A stretch of DNA of 64,000 bases, taken from positions 1-64,000 of the forward strand of contig JAPPGE010000069.1 in assembly GCA_028821455.1 (NCBI GenBank). The letters run 5' to 3'. Both the position numbers and the translations under genes were made by a program. Source of the stretch: a bacterium (GTDB taxonomy: Bacteria > Pseudomonadota > Alphaproteobacteria > SP197). The notes under the pieces were generated by a model. The model saw nothing but the letters and a program-made list of their open reading frames with translations. It made no database searches and was not told where the DNA came from. Of this stretch, positions 4,687 to 13,153 are shown one piece after another; position 1 is the first letter of the stretch, and each line of letters begins with the position of its first letter.

Positions 4687-4926
4687 ATGCGCACCGTCAA
4701 CATGCACGAAGCGAAGACACATCTGTCGCGTCTTGTCGAAGCGGCCGCCAAGGGCGAGTCATTCATCATCGCACGCGCCGGCAAACCGATGGTCAAGGTC
4801 GTCGCTCTTGACGCTCCGGATCCACGGCATCGAATTGGTTTCCTGGCCGGGCAGATCTCTGTGCCGGACGATTTCGACAGCATGGGCTCGGAAGATGTTC
4901 GCATCCCGTTTTCGGGGCGCGGGTGA
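4687..4926 (+). CDS. Phd/YefM-family antitoxin
   Basis: A 79-residue type II antitoxin. The N-terminal half has the Phd pattern (MRTVNMHEAKTHLSRLVEAA, then GESFIIARAGKPMVKVV), which forms the DNA-binding dimer that usually autoregulates the pair. The C-terminal tail (GFLAGQISVPDDFDSMGSED) is the toxin-neutralising segment typical of partners of SmVapC-like PIN toxins. The ATG at 4687 is chosen because AAGGAGG at 4675-4681 lies 5 nt upstream; a GTG at 4642 lacks one. The stop overlaps the toxin start (GTGA), as in intact pairs. Confidence 0.9.
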   Translation: MRTVNMHEAKTHLSRLVEAAAKGESFIIARAGKPMVKVVALDAPDPRHRIGFLAGQISVPDDFDSMGSEDVRIPFSGRG

Positions 4927-5323
4927 GGCTCCTGCTGGACACGCACCTGTTGTTTGGGCGGCACAGGGATCGGCAAAGCTTCTGGCTGAGGCGCACGATC
5001 TCATAACGGAGCCCGGAACCGAGTTGGTGTTGAGTGCCGCGTTGCATTGGGAGATTGCGACAAAGAGCGGACTCAGGTGCTCCGACTTCCAGGTGAACCT
5101 GCAACTCTTGCATCGCAGCTTGCTGGACGATGGTTATGCCGAACTTCCCGTGACGGGTGCCCACGCAGTGAAGTTAAGCGTGCTGCCGCAGCAGATCGGT
5201 CACCCCTTCGACCGTATCCTGATCGCCCAGGCGCGTGTCGAGCGCATCTTGCTGCTCACTGCCGACAGGACGCTGGCGTACCATCCAGGTCCAATTCTCG
5301 CGCAACAGGAGAGTGCTGCCTGA
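4923..5323 (+). pseudogene. PIN-domain VapC toxin, frameshifted
   Basis: VapC toxins are Mg-dependent endoribonucleases. The start GTG at 4923 overlaps the antitoxin stop and reads MRLLLDTHLLF, the canonical PIN N-terminus with the first catalytic Asp. That frame then departs. The rest of the protein continues in another frame from about 4952 (WAAQGSAKLLAEAHDLI, then SAALHWEIATKSGL, HPFDRILIAQA and LLTADRTLAYH) to a TGA at 5321-5323. Adding one base near 4950-4956 (in TTGTTTGGG) would restore a normal toxin of about 133 residues. The acidic residues of WEI, FDR and TAD are all kept. It is therefore a fresh inactivation, a sequencing error, or (least likely) programmed frameshifting. Confidence 0.8.
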
Positions 5324-5441: not shown

Positions 5442-5558
5442 TCACGGTCCGGGGAGCAGGACATGTCAAACCGGAAACAACCGGTTGATCGGTCGCCATC
5501 CCGTGCCTTCTTGTCACGGGTCATACAGACCGATGCCGATCACAAGGGAGGAACAATC

Positions 5559-6779
5559 ATGCGGGACCGTTTGAAGGGCACGAAAGTGGCGCGTGCAGCC
5601 GCCGTCGTGCTGGCACTCACCCTGGGAACCGGAACCTGGGCCGACGATGACATCAAGGTCGGCGCGATCTTTGACTTGACCGGTGGACTCAACATCTACG
5701 GTATCCAGCAGAGTCAGGCACTGCACCTTGCCGTCGACAGCATCAATGCCGCTGGTGGCGTGCTGGGCAACCAGATCACCGTCATCGAGAACGATGCACA
5801 GTCCGATCTTGCCAAGTACACGCAGTACACCAACACGCTCATCCTGCGCGATCAGATCGACGTCCTGTTTGCCGGACTGACGAGTTCGTCGCGGGAAGCC
5901 ATCCGGCCGATCGTGAGGCAAAAGAAGGTACCGTACTTCTACAGCGCCCTCTATGAGGGCGGCGCCTGCGACAAGCAGACATTCATCACCGGCGCTTCGG
6001 CGTCGCAGCAGATGAGCGTACTCATTGACTGGGCAGTGAGGGAGTACGGGCCCAGAATCTACATCATGGCACCCGACTACAACTTCGGAACCATCTCGGC
6101 CCACTGGGTGGAGTACTACGCCGAACAGTTTGGCGCCGAAGTTCTCGGAGCCGACTTCCTGCCCCTCACGGTGACCGACTATTCGCCGACGATCCAGAAG
6201 ATCCAGGCGGCCGACCCGGACTTCGTCGTCGCCTTGCCGGTGGGCGCCAACCAGACAGGATTCCTGGAGCAGTTCGCGGCCGCCGGACTGAAGGACAAGA
6301 TGGGGATCGTTTCCACCAACTATGGTTCGGGCAATCAGCAGGTGGTTGTCTCGCCGGATGCCGGCGAGGGCATTGTCGCTTCCCAGGAGTACTTCATGTG
6401 GATCGACGAGCCGAACAACGAACCGTTCATGGCCCTGTGGGAGGAAGCGTACGGACTGGATGAGCCCATTATCTCCGAGGCGGCCGACGTCTGGAATGCG
6501 GTTCACGTCTGGGCGGCAGCCGTCGAGATTGCAGGCACCACGGACAACGATGCCGTGATCGCGGCGCTCGAGAGCGGTGTCTCCTTCGAGGGCCCGAACG
6601 GAACGGTCTCCATGCAGCCCGGTTCCCACCACCTGCGTCAGAACATCTACATCGTCCGCGGCAACCGTGAACATGCCTTCGATGTGATCGAGAAATTCGA
6701 GTATGTGGCGCCGAGTTTCGAGGACGAGGTGTGTGACCTGATCGCCAATCCAGATACGGCGGAACACTTCGTTCCCTGA
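5559..6779 (+). CDS. Urea/short-chain-amide ABC transporter binding protein
   Basis: A periplasmic binding protein (406 residues, Peripla_BP_5/UrtA-FmdD type) that would capture the solute for the permeases encoded next. A Sec signal peptide spans 1-28 (RLKGTKVARAAAVVLALTLG, cut after GTWA). Family hallmarks include KVGAIFDLTGG, FYSALYEGGACDKQTF, PDYNFGTISAHW, TDYSPTIQKIQAADPD and FEGPNGTVSMQPGSHH. The last is shared with urea and formamide/amide binders rather than LivJ. The ATG at 5559 follows AAGGGAGGAAC; an upstream in-frame start at 5463 would place extra residues before the signal peptide. It is the first gene of the operon; the amidase downstream makes an amide or ureido compound the likely ligand (inference). 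Confidence 0.9.
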   Translation: MRDRLKGTKVARAAAVVLALTLGTGTWADDDIKVGAIFDLTGGLNIYGIQQSQALHLAVDSINAAGGVLGNQITVIENDAQSDLAKYTQYTNTLILRDQIDVLFAGLTSSSREAIRPIVRQKKVPYFYSALYEGGACDKQTFITGASASQQMSVLIDWAVREYGPRIYIMAPDYNFGTISAHWVEYYAEQFGAEVLGADFLPLTVTDYSPTIQKIQAADPDFVVALPVGANQTGFLEQFAAAGLKDKMGIVSTNYGSGNQQVVVSPDAGEGIVASQEYFMWIDEPNNEPFMALWEEAYGLDEPIISEAADVWNAVHVWAAAVEIAGTTDNDAVIAALESGVSFEGPNGTVSMQPGSHHLRQNIYIVRGNREHAFDVIEKFEYVAPSFEDEVCDLIANPDTAEHFVP

Positions 6780-6790
6780 ACCCTGGAGAG

Positions 6791-6828
6791 GAAGGCGGGC
6801 GGCTGCAGGCGCAGCTGCCCGCTCCTTC
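6791..6828 (+). promoter_or_regulatory. Intercistronic stem-loop
   Basis: GAAGGCGGGCGGCTGC and GCAGCTGCCCGCTCCTTC can pair with one mismatch and a bulge. The hairpin lies between the binding-protein stop and the permease GTG. No T-run follows. Such hairpins often stabilise the upstream mRNA or cause partial termination, so that the binding protein exceeds the membrane subunits (inference). Confidence 0.55.
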
Positions 6829-6867
6829 TCAGACTGACCCGGCGCCAGTACGCGGAGAGTCCCGACC

Positions 6868-7734
6868 GTGGAACTCGACTATCTTGCGACAGTTCTGCTG
6901 TCATCTCTGTCGAGCGCCTCCGTTCTGCTCATTGCCACCGTAGGACTCGCCATCGTCTTTGGATTGATGGGGGTCATCAATCTCGCCCACGGCGAGTTCA
7001 TCATGTTCGGTGCCTACGTGGCGCTGTTTGCCACGCGAAGCGGTGTTCCGTTTCCCCTGGCGGTTGTTCTGGCCAGCGTCGTCACCGCTCTGTTCGGCGC
7101 CATCGTCGAGAGGGCGATCATCCGCCATCTCTACGGGCGCATTCTCGATACTCTGCTCGCGACCTGGGGGCTCTCTCTGGTGCTCTACCAGTCGGCGGTG
7201 CTGATTTTCGGCACGGTAACGCCCGGTGTCGGCATGCCGCAGTCCAACATCGAGATCGGGAATTACACGCTTTCCACATACCTGCTTTTCCTCATTCTCG
7301 TGGCGGTGGTCCTGATCGGGCTTCTCTATTGGCTGCTCACGCGCACCGGATACGGAATTGTTGCACGGGCGGCTATTCAGGATCCGGAGACCGCGGCAAC
7401 GATGGGGATCGAGTCCGGACGCATCAACACGGCGACGTTCGCCCTGGGTTCGGGACTCGCCGGATTTGCGGGCGCCATCCTGCTTCCCGCATTCCCGGCG
7501 ACGCCAAGCATGGGCTTCGCCTTCGTCATCAAGGCCTTTCTTGCCGTTGTCGCGGCGGGACCCGTCACTCTCTCGGGAACGGTCGCTGCCGGCGGAGTCC
7601 TGGGCTCCATCGCCAGCATGACGGCGAGTTTCTACACGACCGTCATGGGAGATGTCGTGTTCTTCATCGCGACGATCACGATCCTGCGGATCTTCCCCCT
7701 CGGGATCTCCGCGCGCTGGCGTCTGAAACTCTGA
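6868..7734 (+). CDS. ABC transporter permease, LivH/UrtB-like
   Basis: An inner-membrane permease of 288 residues with about eight hydrophobic segments. The family signature GLAIVFGLMGVINLAHGEFIMFGAY starts near residue 26. The cytoplasmic coupling region reads GIVARAAIQDPETAATMGI, where ATPases dock. The GTG start at 6868 has GGAGAG about 8 nt upstream. It pairs with the second permease encoded 4 nt downstream. Compared with LivH, the short N-terminus and the neighbouring UrtD/UrtE-like ATPases favour a urea/amide importer. Confidence 0.9.
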   Translation: MELDYLATVLLSSLSSASVLLIATVGLAIVFGLMGVINLAHGEFIMFGAYVALFATRSGVPFPLAVVLASVVTALFGAIVERAIIRHLYGRILDTLLATWGLSLVLYQSAVLIFGTVTPGVGMPQSNIEIGNYTLSTYLLFLILVAVVLIGLLYWLLTRTGYGIVARAAIQDPETAATMGIESGRINTATFALGSGLAGFAGAILLPAFPATPSMGFAFVIKAFLAVVAAGPVTLSGTVAAGGVLGSIASMTASFYTTVMGDVVFFIATITILRIFPLGISARWRLKL

Positions 7735-7738
7735 TCCG

Positions 7739-9583
7739 ATGGCAGGAGCCGTGGAAACGGACATGCCCAGGGTGGCGCGCTTCGAACCGTTCTCGCTCAT
7801 CTGGCTATGCGGTCTGGTCGGACTGGCGATTGTCGCCAGCCTCGCCTTCGATCCCTACCTTGCCTATGTCGCGACGTCGTGGGTCATCTTCGGATTGCTG
7901 GGTCTCAGCCTTGACCTGGTGTGGGGCAGGGGCGGGATCCTGAGCCTCGGACAGACAGCATTCTACGGTGTGGGCGGCTACCTTGGCAGTATCACAGCGA
8001 TCAATTGTGCATCCCTCACCGGGAACACACTCATCTGGTCACTGCCGGTGGGTATGGCGACGGGCGCGGCGACGGCGATTCTGATCGGTGGTCTCACATT
8101 CTACGGTCGTCTCGGTCCGCTTCAGACGACCATCATCACCTACACCTTCACGCTGGTGCTGTGGACCGTCGCGGTATCATTCACGACCACAATAGGTGAC
8201 GCCGTTGTCGGTGGCGACAATGGGATGTCGAACATCCCGGGGTACGTCCTTGGTTTTGGGCATGACGCTCCGTTGCTCGAGCCGGGAGCGATGTTCCTCA
8301 CCGTCGCCGTCATCGCCACCATAGCCTGGTATGCCAGTCACGTCCTGATGCGCTCGCCGTTCGGACTGGTGATCGACTGTATACGCATGGATCCGGTCAA
8401 GGCCGAGCTTCTCGGTTACGATGTCCGGCTCTACCAGCTTCTTCTCTTCACGATTGCCGGAGCTGTTGCGGGCCTTGCCGGCGCCCTGTTCGGCGCCTGG
8501 GCCAACTATCTCAACCCTTCCGTCTTCAGTGTCCAGGAGGCCCTGCTGGTGCCGATCTATGTCCTCGTCGGGGGCAGGGGATCACTGGTGGGGGCCTTTC
8601 TTGGAGCCCTCATGGTGGGAGGGCTGTCCTTCTGGCTTGGCGGAGGCGTCATCGGCGGCCAGACCACTCTCGTCATGGGCGCCTGCCTCATCCTGCTGGT
8701 GATATTTCTGCGTAACGGGCTGACCGGGGGTCTTCGTGATCTCGCGGAAATGACGAGGCACCTGGCGATGCGACGCGGCGAGGGTGAGGACGACGATTCG
8801 CGCGAGCCCAGTCTCAACGTGGACTTCGAGCGTCTCGACCTGCTGCGCGCTACGGAAGGAGAACCGGTAATTCTGGAGACCGAAGACACGTTCAAGCGTT
8901 TCGGCGGGGTGATCCCGGTGAGGCATGTTTCCCAGTCCTTCTCCCCGGGGCGGGTGCGGTGCCTCATCGGCCCCAACGGCGCCGGAAAGAGCTCCTATCT
9001 CAAGGCCTGTACGGGTGTTTACAAGCCTGATGGTGGGAGCATTACGCTGGCCGGCCAGGACATCACGAAGACCGACCCCTTTCGAAGGGTGCGCATGGGG
9101 CTGGGCATCAAGAACCAGAGGGCACAGGTGTTTGCCGGTCTTGACGTGCGTCGTAACCTCTGGGTTGCCGCCTACAGCCGCAGCCGGGATGCACGAACGG
9201 CCGACTGGATCACGGCGGAAATGCTCCACATGCTTGGCATGCGGAATTCGGCATCAAGGCCGGCGAGTGAGCTGTCCCACGGGGAGCAGCAGTGGCTGGA
9301 TCTGGGCATGGTGCTTGCTCTGGGCCCTGATGTCATCCTGCTCGATGAGCCCGCAGCGGGCATGACCAACGAGGAGCGTCGTCAGCTGTCACACATGGTC
9401 CGGGCACTTGCCAGGACCGCCTCCGTGGTGGTGGTGGAGCATGACATGGACTTCGTGCGCACACTCGATGCCGATGTCACGGTCCTTCACCAGGGTGAAG
9501 TGTTTGCCCGTGGCGACATCGAGGCGCTGCGCCAGGACGACCGGGTGCTCGACATCTACCTGGGCCGTCATCAGCATGTTTGA
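7739..9583 (+). CDS. Fused ABC permease-ATPase, LivM-LivG (UrtC-UrtD) like
   Basis: A 614-residue fusion. Residues 1-325 form the LivM/UrtC permease (GLSLDLVWGRGGILSLGQTA at 55-74, coupling region CIRMDPVKAELLGYDVR at 214-230). Residues 330-375 are a charged cytoplasmic linker. Residues 377-614 are the LivG/UrtD ATPase, with Walker A GPNGAGKSS at 411-419, signature LSHGEQQ at 512-518 and Walker B ILLDEP at 533-538 followed by VVVVEHDMDFVR. In most genomes these are two genes; fused forms do occur, and the reading frame here is continuous without a weak spot. The start follows the previous stop by 4 nt; ATG 7763 is an alternative. The stop overlaps the next start. Confidence 0.9.
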   Translation: MAGAVETDMPRVARFEPFSLIWLCGLVGLAIVASLAFDPYLAYVATSWVIFGLLGLSLDLVWGRGGILSLGQTAFYGVGGYLGSITAINCASLTGNTLIWSLPVGMATGAATAILIGGLTFYGRLGPLQTTIITYTFTLVLWTVAVSFTTTIGDAVVGGDNGMSNIPGYVLGFGHDAPLLEPGAMFLTVAVIATIAWYASHVLMRSPFGLVIDCIRMDPVKAELLGYDVRLYQLLLFTIAGAVAGLAGALFGAWANYLNPSVFSVQEALLVPIYVLVGGRGSLVGAFLGALMVGGLSFWLGGGVIGGQTTLVMGACLILLVIFLRNGLTGGLRDLAEMTRHLAMRRGEGEDDDSREPSLNVDFERLDLLRATEGEPVILETEDTFKRFGGVIPVRHVSQSFSPGRVRCLIGPNGAGKSSYLKACTGVYKPDGGSITLAGQDITKTDPFRRVRMGLGIKNQRAQVFAGLDVRRNLWVAAYSRSRDARTADWITAEMLHMLGMRNSASRPASELSHGEQQWLDLGMVLALGPDVILLDEPAAGMTNEERRQLSHMVRALARTASVVVVEHDMDFVRTLDADVTVLHQGEVFARGDIEALRQDDRVLDIYLGRHQHV

Positions 9584-10274
9584 AATCACTGACGCAACCG
9601 GCGGCTACGGCAAGACGCGGATCATCCGCAACGTGTCGATGAAAGTGAACACCGGGGAAGTTGTGGCACTTCTGGGGAGGAATGGTGTCGGCAAGTCGAC
9701 GTTGCTGAAGTACATCATGGGACTGATCGATGTCTTCGGTGGACAGGTATCACTCGATGGCGCACCGCTTCCCGCTTCCACTGCGCGGCGCGCCCGTGCC
9801 GGACTCGGCTACGTGCCGCAGGGCCGCTATGTCTTCCCGCGTCTCACCGTGACGGAGAATATCGCGGCAGCGGCCATCGGTTGCGGCCTTGACAGGAAGG
9901 AGGCGGTCGAACGGGCGCTCAGTGACTTCCCCATCCTCTACGAGAAAGCTGAGGCATTGGCCGGCAGCCTGAGTGGCGGCCAGCAGCAGATCCTCGCCAT
10001 CGCCCGCGCCCTGGCCACGCGCCCCAGAGTGCTGATGCTCGATGAGCCAAGCGAGGGTGTCCAGCCATCCATTGTCGACGAGATTGCCGGCATTCTCATG
10101 GCGATGAAGGATGAGGCAACTCTCACCATCATCATCGCCGAGCAGAATCTCGATTTTTGTCTTTCCCTTGCCGAGCGGGCCTACGTCATGGCGGGTGGCA
10201 CCATCGCCCGGGAAGTCACACGCGATGAACTTGTCGGCGACCGCGAACTGCTGCACGACCTGCTCGGGGTATGA
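9576..10274 (+). CDS. ABC transporter ATP-binding protein, LivF/UrtE-like
   Basis: The second ATPase of the importer, 232 residues. Walker A is LGRNGVGKST at 33-42, the signature is LSGGQQQ, and Walker B is VLMLDEPSEGVQPSIVDEI. The 'EGxQPSI' wording after Walker B is characteristic of UrtE/LivF subunits. The ATG at 9576 lies inside the end of the preceding fusion gene (8-nt overlap), consistent with translational coupling. It would heterodimerise with the C-terminal domain of the fusion protein. Confidence 0.92.
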   Translation: MFEITDATGGYGKTRIIRNVSMKVNTGEVVALLGRNGVGKSTLLKYIMGLIDVFGGQVSLDGAPLPASTARRARAGLGYVPQGRYVFPRLTVTENIAAAAIGCGLDRKEAVERALSDFPILYEKAEALAGSLSGGQQQILAIARALATRPRVLMLDEPSEGVQPSIVDEIAGILMAMKDEATLTIIIAEQNLDFCLSLAERAYVMAGGTIAREVTRDELVGDRELLHDLLGV

Positions 10275-10303
10275 CGGCGCACGAAGAAGGAGGACGAGGG
10301 GCC

Positions 10304-10489
10304 ATGACACGCGTGACGGGTGAGCAGGTGATCGGTTATCGCCGGGCCATGGGGCGGCCGGACCTTGCGGATGCCGATGTCGACCGTGTGGTCGACATAC
10401 TCAACGATGCCCTCGGGGCGCTCGCCGGTCTCGATGATGTATCGTGGGTGGAGCCGACACCTCACTTCCGGGTCGAGCGCCATGACTGA
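10304..10489 (+). CDS. AtzG/GatC-like small amidase partner (DUF4089-like)
   Basis: A 61-residue protein placed immediately before the amidase, overlapping its start by 8 nt. It has a helical pattern (DLADADVDRVVDILNDALGA) and a C-terminal segment (VEPTPHFRVE) resembling AtzG, the small subunit that binds the AtzE amidase in cyanuric-acid breakdown, and more distantly GatC. Similarity is by pattern and position, not by strong identity. ATG 10304 is preferred because AGAAGGAGG ends about 10 nt upstream; an earlier ATG at 10271 overlaps the ATPase stop. It is likely a structural or stability partner of the amidase. Confidence 0.55.
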   Translation: MTRVTGEQVIGYRRAMGRPDLADADVDRVVDILNDALGALAGLDDVSWVEPTPHFRVERHD

Positions 10490-11879
10490 GGTCCCCCTCA
10501 ACGAACTGGAAGTCGGCGACCTCGTCCGTCGTCTGCATCACCGTGACATCACCGCTGTCGCCCTCGCCGAGGCCTGCCTTGCCGCCTCGGCGAGGGTGCG
10601 TGACACGATCAATGCCCATGTTGCCCTTGACGAAGGGAAGGTCATCGCCGAGGCCCGGGCACTCGACGACATGAGGGCAGGTGGCGTCGTTGCCGGCCCG
10701 CTCCACGGCATCCCGGTGGCGGTCAAGGACAACTTCTGGACCAGGGACTATCCGACAACAGCGTGCTCCCGGGTTCTCGCCGTTGCACCCGTCGGCATCG
10801 ATGCGACGGTTGTGGGACGACTGCGGGCTGCCGGCGCCATTGTCTTCGGCAAGACCAACATGCATGAATGGGCCTACGGCGCGACGAATACGTCGTCGGC
10901 ATTCGGTCCGGTACACAATCCATGGAACCCCGGTCACATCTCGGGAGGATCGAGCGGCGGATCCGCAGCCGCCCTGGCGGCGCGTGTCGTGCCTGCGGCC
11001 CTGGGCAGTGATACGGGCGGATCAGTGAGAATACCCGCGGCGGCATGTGGAGTCTGTGGGCTCAAGCCGACCTACGGGCGTCTCAGCCGATTCGGAGTCC
11101 TGCCGCTCTCGTTCTCGCTCGATGTCGCGGGACCCATGGCCCGTTCGGCGCGGGATCTGGAAATTCTCCTCGACGTCCTTTCCGGCGAAGACCCGAAGGA
11201 CCCTACGACCCGTGTCGACAGGCGTGCCGCCGCGAGGTCGGGCAATCCTCGACTCGCGGTGTTGCGTGGCGAGGGGATTCTCTGTGACGAGGACGTCGGG
11301 CACGCCTTCGAGAATGCTCTTGGCGTGTTCCGGGAAGCGGGTTGCACCATCACCGAAATTGAGGTGCCGGGGCTTGAGCGCGGATTTGGCATCTGGAAAG
11401 TCATCATGCTGGCAGAGGCGTCCGCCTGGCATGCACGATACCTGGAAACCCATGTCGACTCGTACGGAGAGGACGTCAGGATTCAGCTGCAGGCCGGGCA
11501 GCACATCGCCGCCGTCGACTATCTCAAGGCCCAGCAGTTCAGGACCCACCTTGTCGCCAGGTTTCGGGAACTCCTCGAGCACCACGACGCCGCGTGCATG
11601 CCAACCCTCCCCGTTGCCGCACCGGCAATCGGGGAAACGGACCTCACAGTTGGCACAAGACGGATCTCCGCGCAGGACGCGATGACGGTGATGCCATGGA
11701 TCGCCAATCTGACGGGCCTGCCGGCTGTCTCGATCCCCTCGGGACGCAATTCAGCGGGTCTGCCGGTCGCGCTGACCCTGATGGGTCGCCCATTCGGGGA
11801 AGAGACCATTCTCGACATGGCCGGAGCATTCCAGTCTGTCACGGGCTGGCATACCCTCAAGCCTGACATGGTGGCTTGA
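10482..11879 (+). CDS. Amidase-signature family hydrolase (AtzE/GatA-like)
   Basis: A 465-residue amidase with the Ser-cisSer-Lys triad in place: Lys82 in [11 protein letters not shown], the cis-Ser in GGSSGGS at 155-161, and nucleophile Ser181 in [13 protein letters not shown]. It hydrolyses a C-N amide bond. The AtzG-like gene before it points to AtzE (1-carboxybiuret hydrolase) type enzymes rather than GatA, and no gatB is present. Co-transcription with the urea/amide-type importer suggests that the imported compound or a product of it is the substrate (inference). The ATG at 10482 gives the standard N-terminus ([13 protein letters not shown]). Confidence 0.9.
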
Positions 11880-11932: not shown

Positions 11933-13153
11933 ATGGCGCGAGGGATGGACAAGAGACTTCTTGAACTGATGACCCGTTCGGAGCGGGACAGGGTCATGGC
12001 ACCGATCGGCGAGGCCATGACACTCCCCTCCCAGGCCTTCACGGATGCCGCATGGCATGCGCTTGAGGTGGAGCGGATCTTCGCGCGGAACTGGACCGCC
12101 GTCATGTTCGCCGTGGAACTTCCGTGTGCCGGGGATGCCCGGCCGTTCGATCTCTTCGATCAGCCGCTGCTGGCGGTCCGGGGGCGAGACGGGACGTTGC
12201 GCGTCTTTCACAACATCGTCCCATATGACGGCTGCCTGGCCCTGCTGCGTCCGGCAAGGGGCCTGGAGTTCATCGACACTCCCTACCATGGCCTTCGCTA
12301 CGACCTCGACGGCCGCCTTGTGGGCGCGCCCTACTGGGATGGCAGTCCAGATGCCGGCCCCGAGGCCCTGGATGGATGGCCATGCGATCTCGTCGAGGTT
12401 CCGAGCGCCGAGCGGTTTGGCACTCTCTTCATCAATTCCGATGGCGATGCACCGGATATCGATGAGTGGTTGATGCCCTGGCGCCGCCTCGTGGGCACCG
12501 ACTTTGCCATCGACCGTCTGGTCCCTGCCCGCGACGGCGACGGACAGCCGCTCATCGAAGAGAGAACCGTCAACACCAACTGGAAGACCTACCAGGAAAA
12601 CGCATCCATCAACCTCCTCCATGAAGCCTTTACACACGACATCTACCGCAAGTCTCCCGAAGTTCCGCGGGTCGGAGCGGCCGGAGAGCCCCGCTTCGAG
12701 CTCACCATGGAGGGCTCACTCCTTGCCTTCGCCCATTCCCGTGAGCAATCCGGCGCCACATATGACGAAGTTCACCTTCCCTCGGCCGGTCACGATACCG
12801 GCATCGTGCCCGAACGGGGCTACTTCACGACACTCTATCCCAACGTCAACATTCCGCTGCTCGACACCTTCGCCAAGGTCAACATCGCCCTGCCGCTGGG
12901 TCCGGGCGTCACGGAGTTGAGACACCTGCGGTTCTATGCTCCCGAAGCACTCGAGGATCCCGCCTTCCAGGATCAGGAATTGCAGGTGCAAGGATTGTTC
13001 GATGTCGTTCACGCGGAAGACAGGATCATGATCGAGGCCGTGCAGGCCGCACGCCGCAGCCCAGTGTGCCTCCAGCATTACTACGCACCGTTCTGGGACA
13101 GGCTCCACCACCGCTTCAACCAGCTCGTCATGGCGGATATGGAGCGGACCTGA
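11933..13153 (+). CDS. Rieske-oxygenase alpha-subunit homologue lacking the Rieske ligands
   Basis: About 406 residues with end-to-end similarity in layout to CMO/GbcA-type ring-hydroxylating oxygenases. In the Rieske domain the expected C-x-H...C-x2-H becomes Val96-Pro-Tyr98 (FHNIVPYDG) and Thr116-x2-His119 (IDTPYHGLRYDLDGRL). Spacing is normal, but three of four cluster ligands are gone. In the catalytic domain, NWKTYQENASINLLHEAFTH keeps both iron histidines (230, 235) while the bridging Asp/Glu is Asn227; an Asp candidate remains in HAEDRIMIEAVQ. It probably cannot take electrons through its own 2Fe-2S centre. Last gene of the amide operon. Start is uncertain (TTG 11876 overlaps the amidase stop; ATG 11933 or 11945). 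Confidence 0.82.
   Translation: MARGMDKRLLELMTRSERDRVMAPIGEAMTLPSQAFTDAAWHALEVERIFARNWTAVMFAVELPCAGDARPFDLFDQPLLAVRGRDGTLRVFHNIVPYDGCLALLRPARGLEFIDTPYHGLRYDLDGRLVGAPYWDGSPDAGPEALDGWPCDLVEVPSAERFGTLFINSDGDAPDIDEWLMPWRRLVGTDFAIDRLVPARDGDGQPLIEERTVNTNWKTYQENASINLLHEAFTHDIYRKSPEVPRVGAAGEPRFELTMEGSLLAFAHSREQSGATYDEVHLPSAGHDTGIVPERGYFTTLYPNVNIPLLDTFAKVNIALPLGPGVTELRHLRFYAPEALEDPAFQDQELQVQGLFDVVHAEDRIMIEAVQAARRSPVCLQHYYAPFWDRLHHRFNQLVMADMERT

Follow-up and report, generated by a model that had tools for sequence, protein, structure and literature searches.

Rieske oxygenases are defined by the delivery of electrons from a Rieske cluster to a mononuclear iron through a conserved carboxylate. The window analyzed here is a stretch of 64,000 nucleotides from an alphaproteobacterial contig (JAPPGE010000069.1), and one of its genes, P0001, encodes a protein with the fold of these enzymes in which the cluster ligands and the carboxylate are replaced. 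What can such a protein still do? The original prediction offered two answers: a non-redox enzyme on the old iron site, or a binding or regulatory protein for an amidase pathway. We addressed this question with the translation of the gene, its homologues, their genomic neighbours and a predicted structure.

Altered ligand positions in P0001

Residues are numbered throughout on the 406-aa translation from position 11933. The ATG at 11945 is probably the likelier start, because a stop codon lies just before the equivalent Met in the homologue L010. The features of the gene are as follows.

11945..13153, + strand: P0001, cluster-less protein with the Rieske-oxygenase fold (402 aa from ATG 11945; 406 aa from 11933)
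12218..12226, + strand: V96-P97-Y98 where the first Rieske ligand pair (C-x-H) would stand, then D99 for Arg; from the translation, with Y/F98 and D99 in 24/24 homologues
12278..12289, + strand: T116-P-Y-H119 in place of C-x2-H, with H119 kept; from the translation, residue 116 never being Cys in the family
12611..12613, + strand: N227, at the position of the bridging carboxylate (CntA E205); from the alignment and motif table
12620..12637, + strand: iron ligands H230 and H235 with the family-specific E231 between them; from the alignment and motif table
12644..12670, + strand: family-specific loop after H235 with invariant Y238, S241, P245 and R246; low model confidence
13019..13021, + strand: D363, third iron ligand (CntA D323), in an E362-D363 segment; from the alignment and motif table

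In the translation of 11933-13153, the first-ligand stretch reads H93-N-I-V96-P97-Y98-D99-G-C, the second T116-P-Y118-H119-G-L, and the bridge and iron stretch E222-N-A-S-I-N227-L-L-H230-E-A-F-T-H235. Two Pfam models match above cut-off, Ring_hydroxyl_A (PF00848; E=3.5e-14) and Rieske (PF00355; E=3.8e-6). The best profile match in the PDB (5e-28) is CntA, the oxygenase of carnitine monooxygenase (group Va), whose cluster ligands are C86, H88, C106 and H109, whose bridge is E205 and whose iron ligands are H208, H213 and D323 (PMC7948474). In the phmmer alignment, V96/Y98/T116/H119 of P0001 lie opposite C86/H88/C106/H109 and N227 lies opposite E205, whereas H230/H235/D363 occupy the same iron triad positions as H208/H213/D323. 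Thus, P0001 has V/Y/T/H and N where CntA has its four cluster ligands and its bridge.

An AlphaFold model, computed with 17 family members, has the full Rieske oxygenase fold (pLDDT 88, pTM 0.89). When it was compared with the PDB by Foldseek, CntA was the best match (TM about 0.73 by query and 0.81 by target) and Stc2 the second, both being quaternary-amine oxygenases. Pfam and these matches agree on the two-domain architecture, Rieske plus SRPBCC-type catalytic domain. Residues 232-245, the iron-site loop that carries H235, have pLDDT below 50. The Asn at the bridge and the altered loop could alternatively mean that the metal has been lost.

Stc2 (stachydrine demethylase, group Vb) resembles P0001 in fold and spacing. 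Among the NCBIfam models that match P0001, GbcA (glycine betaine monooxygenase, group Vb) ranks second (4.9e-14), with a score far short of its 670-bit cut-off. Group V enzymes have a Rieske centre and a bridging carboxylate (PMC7948474), neither of which P0001 retains. The substrate-binding aromatic of group Va is also absent: Y203 of CntA lies opposite A224 or a gap, and the A224/S225 of P0001 correspond to W/Y/A followed by S/G/A/C in other members, so that no aromatic is conserved there.

Members, distribution and ancestry of the family

A scan of the genome collection with P0001 gave 21 loci, and the translations that span the sites carry the same substitutions. Further members were added by profile searches. 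The motif alignment comprises 24 family rows and 50 rows of canonical relatives. Y/F98, D99, N227 and E231 are present in 24/24 family rows versus 0/50 canonical rows, which rules out chance or a lone mutant. A sequencing or annotation error behind the substitutions is likewise ruled out, because identical residues occur in independent assemblies. Canonical rows have C-x-H and an Asp or Glu at position 227 in 50/50 cases and C-x2-H in 49/50. In contrast, all 24 family rows have V/C-P-Y/F, (T/S/V/A/G)-x2-H and Asn227. Position 96 is V or C depending on the member, so that a lone Cys survives in some; residue 98 is Phe in one member and Tyr in the others. H119 is invariant across all 74 rows, and the 2-His-1-carboxylate ligand residues H230, H235 and D363 are intact in every family row at the level of sequence. 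The original prediction had described these cluster-ligand losses with only His119 kept, and the exchange of the bridging acid for Asn227 beside the remaining iron histidines; the translation bears both out, with D363 kept as well. It had also proposed to check whether close homologues keep C-x-H/C-x2-H. They do not: all 24 share the losses.

The changes are not confined to the ligands. The exchange of Arg99 for Asp and the new Glu231 are as universal in the family as the ligand losses. Other family-specific invariant residues are W135, T219, Y238, S241, P245, R246 and Y277, and eight family-specific positions (T219, N227, E231, F233, Y238, S241, P245 and R246) are close in sequence to the iron ligands. 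The loop after H235 has no counterpart in the canonical alignment.

The tabulated homologues come from alphaproteobacteria, Pseudomonadales, Leucothrix, Methylobacter and Nitrospinaceae, and from one short contig in a Nostoc assembly, which may be a contaminant. In the small order to which the window belongs, 11/16 genomes have a family member that scores at least 345 bits, and the best canonical proteins reach about 221 bits, leaving a clear gap. In the rest of the class, the family is present in 3/384 other sampled genomes, two of which belong to the window's own taxonomic family. Broader phylum and order samples gave, besides the window and Leucothrix, only matches in the canonical range (207-227 bits); inspection of one such match, L045, showed its ligands to be intact. 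A search of plasmids gave matches at the canonical level only (about 25-28% identity).

In a tree computed with the diagnostic motif columns removed, the 24 family proteins form one side of a 100/100 branch with a long stem. The clade is therefore not a convergence artefact of the motif columns. The family joins 19 canonical proteins (99/98), most of which come from the same order as the window. In the searched full-text literature, from which most subscription papers and all preprints fell outside the scope, we found no account of this cluster-less family; the oxygenase NdmC is the only cluster-less relative found there. Judged from these sequences, the P0001 group is a family previously undescribed in that literature, without the cluster ligands and bridging acid but with the iron ligands kept. 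Because two defining features, the cluster ligands and the bridging carboxylate, are missing from the sequence, P0001 ought not to be classed with functional Rieske oxygenases. These genes are probably misannotated when they are labelled 'aromatic ring-hydroxylating dioxygenase'.

Genomic neighbours

The genes around P0001 in the window are as follows.

5463..10274, + strand: urea/amide-type ABC transporter (binding protein, UrtB-like permease, fused UrtC-UrtD-like permease-ATPase, UrtE-like ATPase)
10365..11879, + strand: AtzE/GatA-like amidase, directly upstream of P0001, an adjacency common only to L009 and L010
13193..15292, - strand: convergent neighbour, a 699-aa metallophosphoesterase-like protein with no Pfam match

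The transporter genes score below the curated urea cut-offs, the match of the permease to UrtB being close to its cut-off. The UrtC-like permease and UrtD-like ATPase are a single 614-aa ORF (window 7739-9583). Two distant family members, L055 and L056, have a relative of the 699-aa protein (38-39% identical) in their vicinity.

The window, L009 and L010 share the layout of amidase upstream and metallophosphoesterase downstream. In L009, the family copy on the amidase side is broken (4906-5180, 8552-8761) and an intact copy lies at 10001-11209; genes for a PLD-domain protein and, by eye, a PIN-like protein separate the two. The link to an amide operon is recent, being confined to the window, L009 and L010, and is not what defines the function. 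The amidase-pathway role of the original prediction was rejected as a general function of the family, because the gene has other neighbours in the remaining lineages.

Six alphaproteobacterial loci (L012, L013, L014, L015, L018 and L054) have an alpha/beta hydrolase gene, an FAD amine oxidase gene and then the family gene. The nearest NCBIfam models of the hydrolase are PcaD-type enol-lactonases, and the nearest PDB entries of the oxidase are monoamine oxidases. L052 has the amine oxidase gene together with TauD and BKACE genes, and three Pseudomonadales loci have an alpha/beta hydrolase gene upstream. In Leucothrix, genes for a PKS, an aromatic amino acid lyase and a TauD-like protein are divergent from the family gene. 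In the window genome, an orthologue of the amine oxidase (59%) adjoins a carbon-nitrogen hydrolase gene on another contig. The neighbours vary and do not point to one pathway; their common theme across lineages, as far as the sequences indicate, is amine or aromatic metabolites.

Two further observations concern these loci. The Leucothrix arctica region (L021 1-15294), in which AMP-binding/PKS, aromatic amino acid lyase, TauD-like and Haem_oxygenas_2 iron redox genes surround the family gene, is possibly a natural-product cluster. A conserved protein of 423-426 aa adjoins the family gene at L019 (2958-4229) and L021 (11731-13011); the 423-aa copy from Methylobacter (L019) matched nothing in Pfam or NCBIfam and nothing significantly in the PDB.

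Possible functions of the retained iron site

Several explanations of the family were weighed. That the gene is decaying and heading for loss is hardly credible. Broken copies are known, namely L043 with two stops and the frameshifted amidase-side copy in L009, but dN/dS between the intact window gene and its L009/L010 orthologues is 0.11-0.12, below that of the adjacent amidase (0.17-0.21), and distant lineages carry identical substitutions. The low dN/dS therefore indicates that the gene is under strong purifying selection. A pseudo-oxygenase that uses the old pocket for ligand binding, sensing or regulation, without catalysis, would account for the loss of the electron-transfer apparatus and for the varying neighbours. 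We nevertheless regard it as unlikely, since the three metal ligands are invariant in all 24 members despite 34-42% identity, and family-specific invariant residues surround them where drift would be expected in a mere binder. Of the two answers in the original prediction, the invariance of H230, H235 and D363 favours the first, an enzyme of a non-Rieske kind on the old iron site, over a pure binding or regulatory protein; the proposed tie to the amidase pathway finds no support, since an amidase adjoins the gene only in the window, L009 and L010.

The protein might instead depend on a partner. NdmC, the oxygenase of 7-methylxanthine N7-demethylase, is a genuine precedent: this non-heme iron protein of the Rieske family lacks a cluster of its own (PMC4408171, PMC10380055), receives its electrons from an additional Rieske cluster carried by NdmD and also requires NdmE (PMC4408171). 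By analogy, the iron of P0001 could receive electrons from a cluster on a ferredoxin or reductase, and small Rieske-domain proteins do occur in the same genomes: the other confident Rieske-domain ORFs of Leucothrix arctica (G756) and Methylobacter (G755) are 211 aa or shorter. The Nitrospinaceae genome (G757) has one Rieske-domain ORF of 550 aa. We consider such a split oxygenase improbable. Every member has Asn at the bridging carboxylate, and a non-exhaustive survey of the annotated neighbours showed neither a reductase or Rieske ferredoxin gene nor a pair of the NdmC type (Rieske-carrying NdmD-like reductase plus GST-like NdmE). Moreover, in contrast to NdmC as described, the family keeps the whole Rieske domain fold, has lost the bridging acid and occurs in genomes without a canonical Rieske oxygenase. 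The last point bears also on a mixed oligomer in which P0001 would be a non-catalytic subunit beside a canonical oxygenase. In all five Pseudomonadales loci, a canonical Rieske oxygenase gene immediately precedes the family gene, and the subtrees of the two proteins have matching branching orders; on these grounds, a lineage-specific functional link is likely there, and a mixed oligomer could still hold as a lineage-specific arrangement. As an explanation of the whole family, it is very improbable. Leucothrix arctica, Methylobacter, Nitrospinaceae and the Nostoc assembly (G763) each have one PF00848 protein, which sits where the family gene does; the single-copy claim is qualified for Methylobacter and Nitrospinaceae, whose genomes were assembled from metagenomes. 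Therefore, no canonical partner is needed in the first three genomes, and an obligate one was rejected for them. In the alphaproteobacterial loci examined, too, the family gene has no canonical gene next to it.

On balance, we lean towards P0001 being a stand-alone mononuclear non-heme iron enzyme that works without electrons from a Rieske cluster and keeps the H230/H235/D363 site. The lineage would have lost the [2Fe-2S] cluster together with the carboxylate that bridges it to the iron, and retained the 2-His-1-carboxylate metal site, where iron would bind. Most likely, O2 would then be activated with electrons from the enzyme's own substrate, as in other facial-triad iron oxygenases; a purely Lewis-acid reaction is the alternative chemistry. 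The substrate may be a small aromatic or amine-derived compound, and the monoamine-oxidase-like and PcaD-like neighbours fit amine or aromatic chemistry, as far as their nearest matches indicate. The former cluster domain would remain as a structural part of a putative head-to-tail trimer. In classical enzymes, the bridging acid makes hydrogen bonds to a His ligand of the cluster in one subunit and to a His ligand of the iron in the adjacent subunit, for example His108-Asp218-His221 in 1Z02 (PMC5033481). By motif order, His108 is probably the His of the C-x2-H pair and the counterpart of H119. H119 may thus form a hydrogen bond with N227 of the adjacent subunit, next to the iron there. H119 is the only cluster ligand kept in every member, which suggests that the interface contact was preserved and the electron route was not. 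The E205A, E205D and E205Q variants of CntA lose activity and electron transfer (PMC7948474); therefore, Asn227 fits a lost Rieske electron input.

A more specific form of the stand-alone iron enzyme is offered tentatively. The family may be a new enzyme class of stand-alone Fe(II) dioxygenases that use substrate electrons. Its ancestor would be a Rieske oxygenase of the quaternary-amine type that lost the cluster and the bridging acid and kept the H119-N227 contact at the subunit interface; the reaction could, for example, be an oxidation or a ring cleavage of aromatic amine-derived metabolites. A family under selection that lost cluster and bridge together and kept the iron ligands and the bridge-touching His is a natural experiment on the purpose of the bridging acid. 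It also makes testable whether this fold can perform oxygen or hydrolytic chemistry without external electrons.

Lastly, canonical relatives are abundant around the family. The window genome (G000) has 41 other matches to P0001, mostly Rieske oxygenases, and genomes of the window's small order have 31-74 first-look candidates each, an unusual expansion. One canonical-looking Rieske oxygenase of the window genome, L004 (contig C90:26313-26822 and flanks), has G-P-C-H for C-P-Y-H, the Cys being displaced; L050, which is 68% identical to L004, keeps C-P-Y-H.
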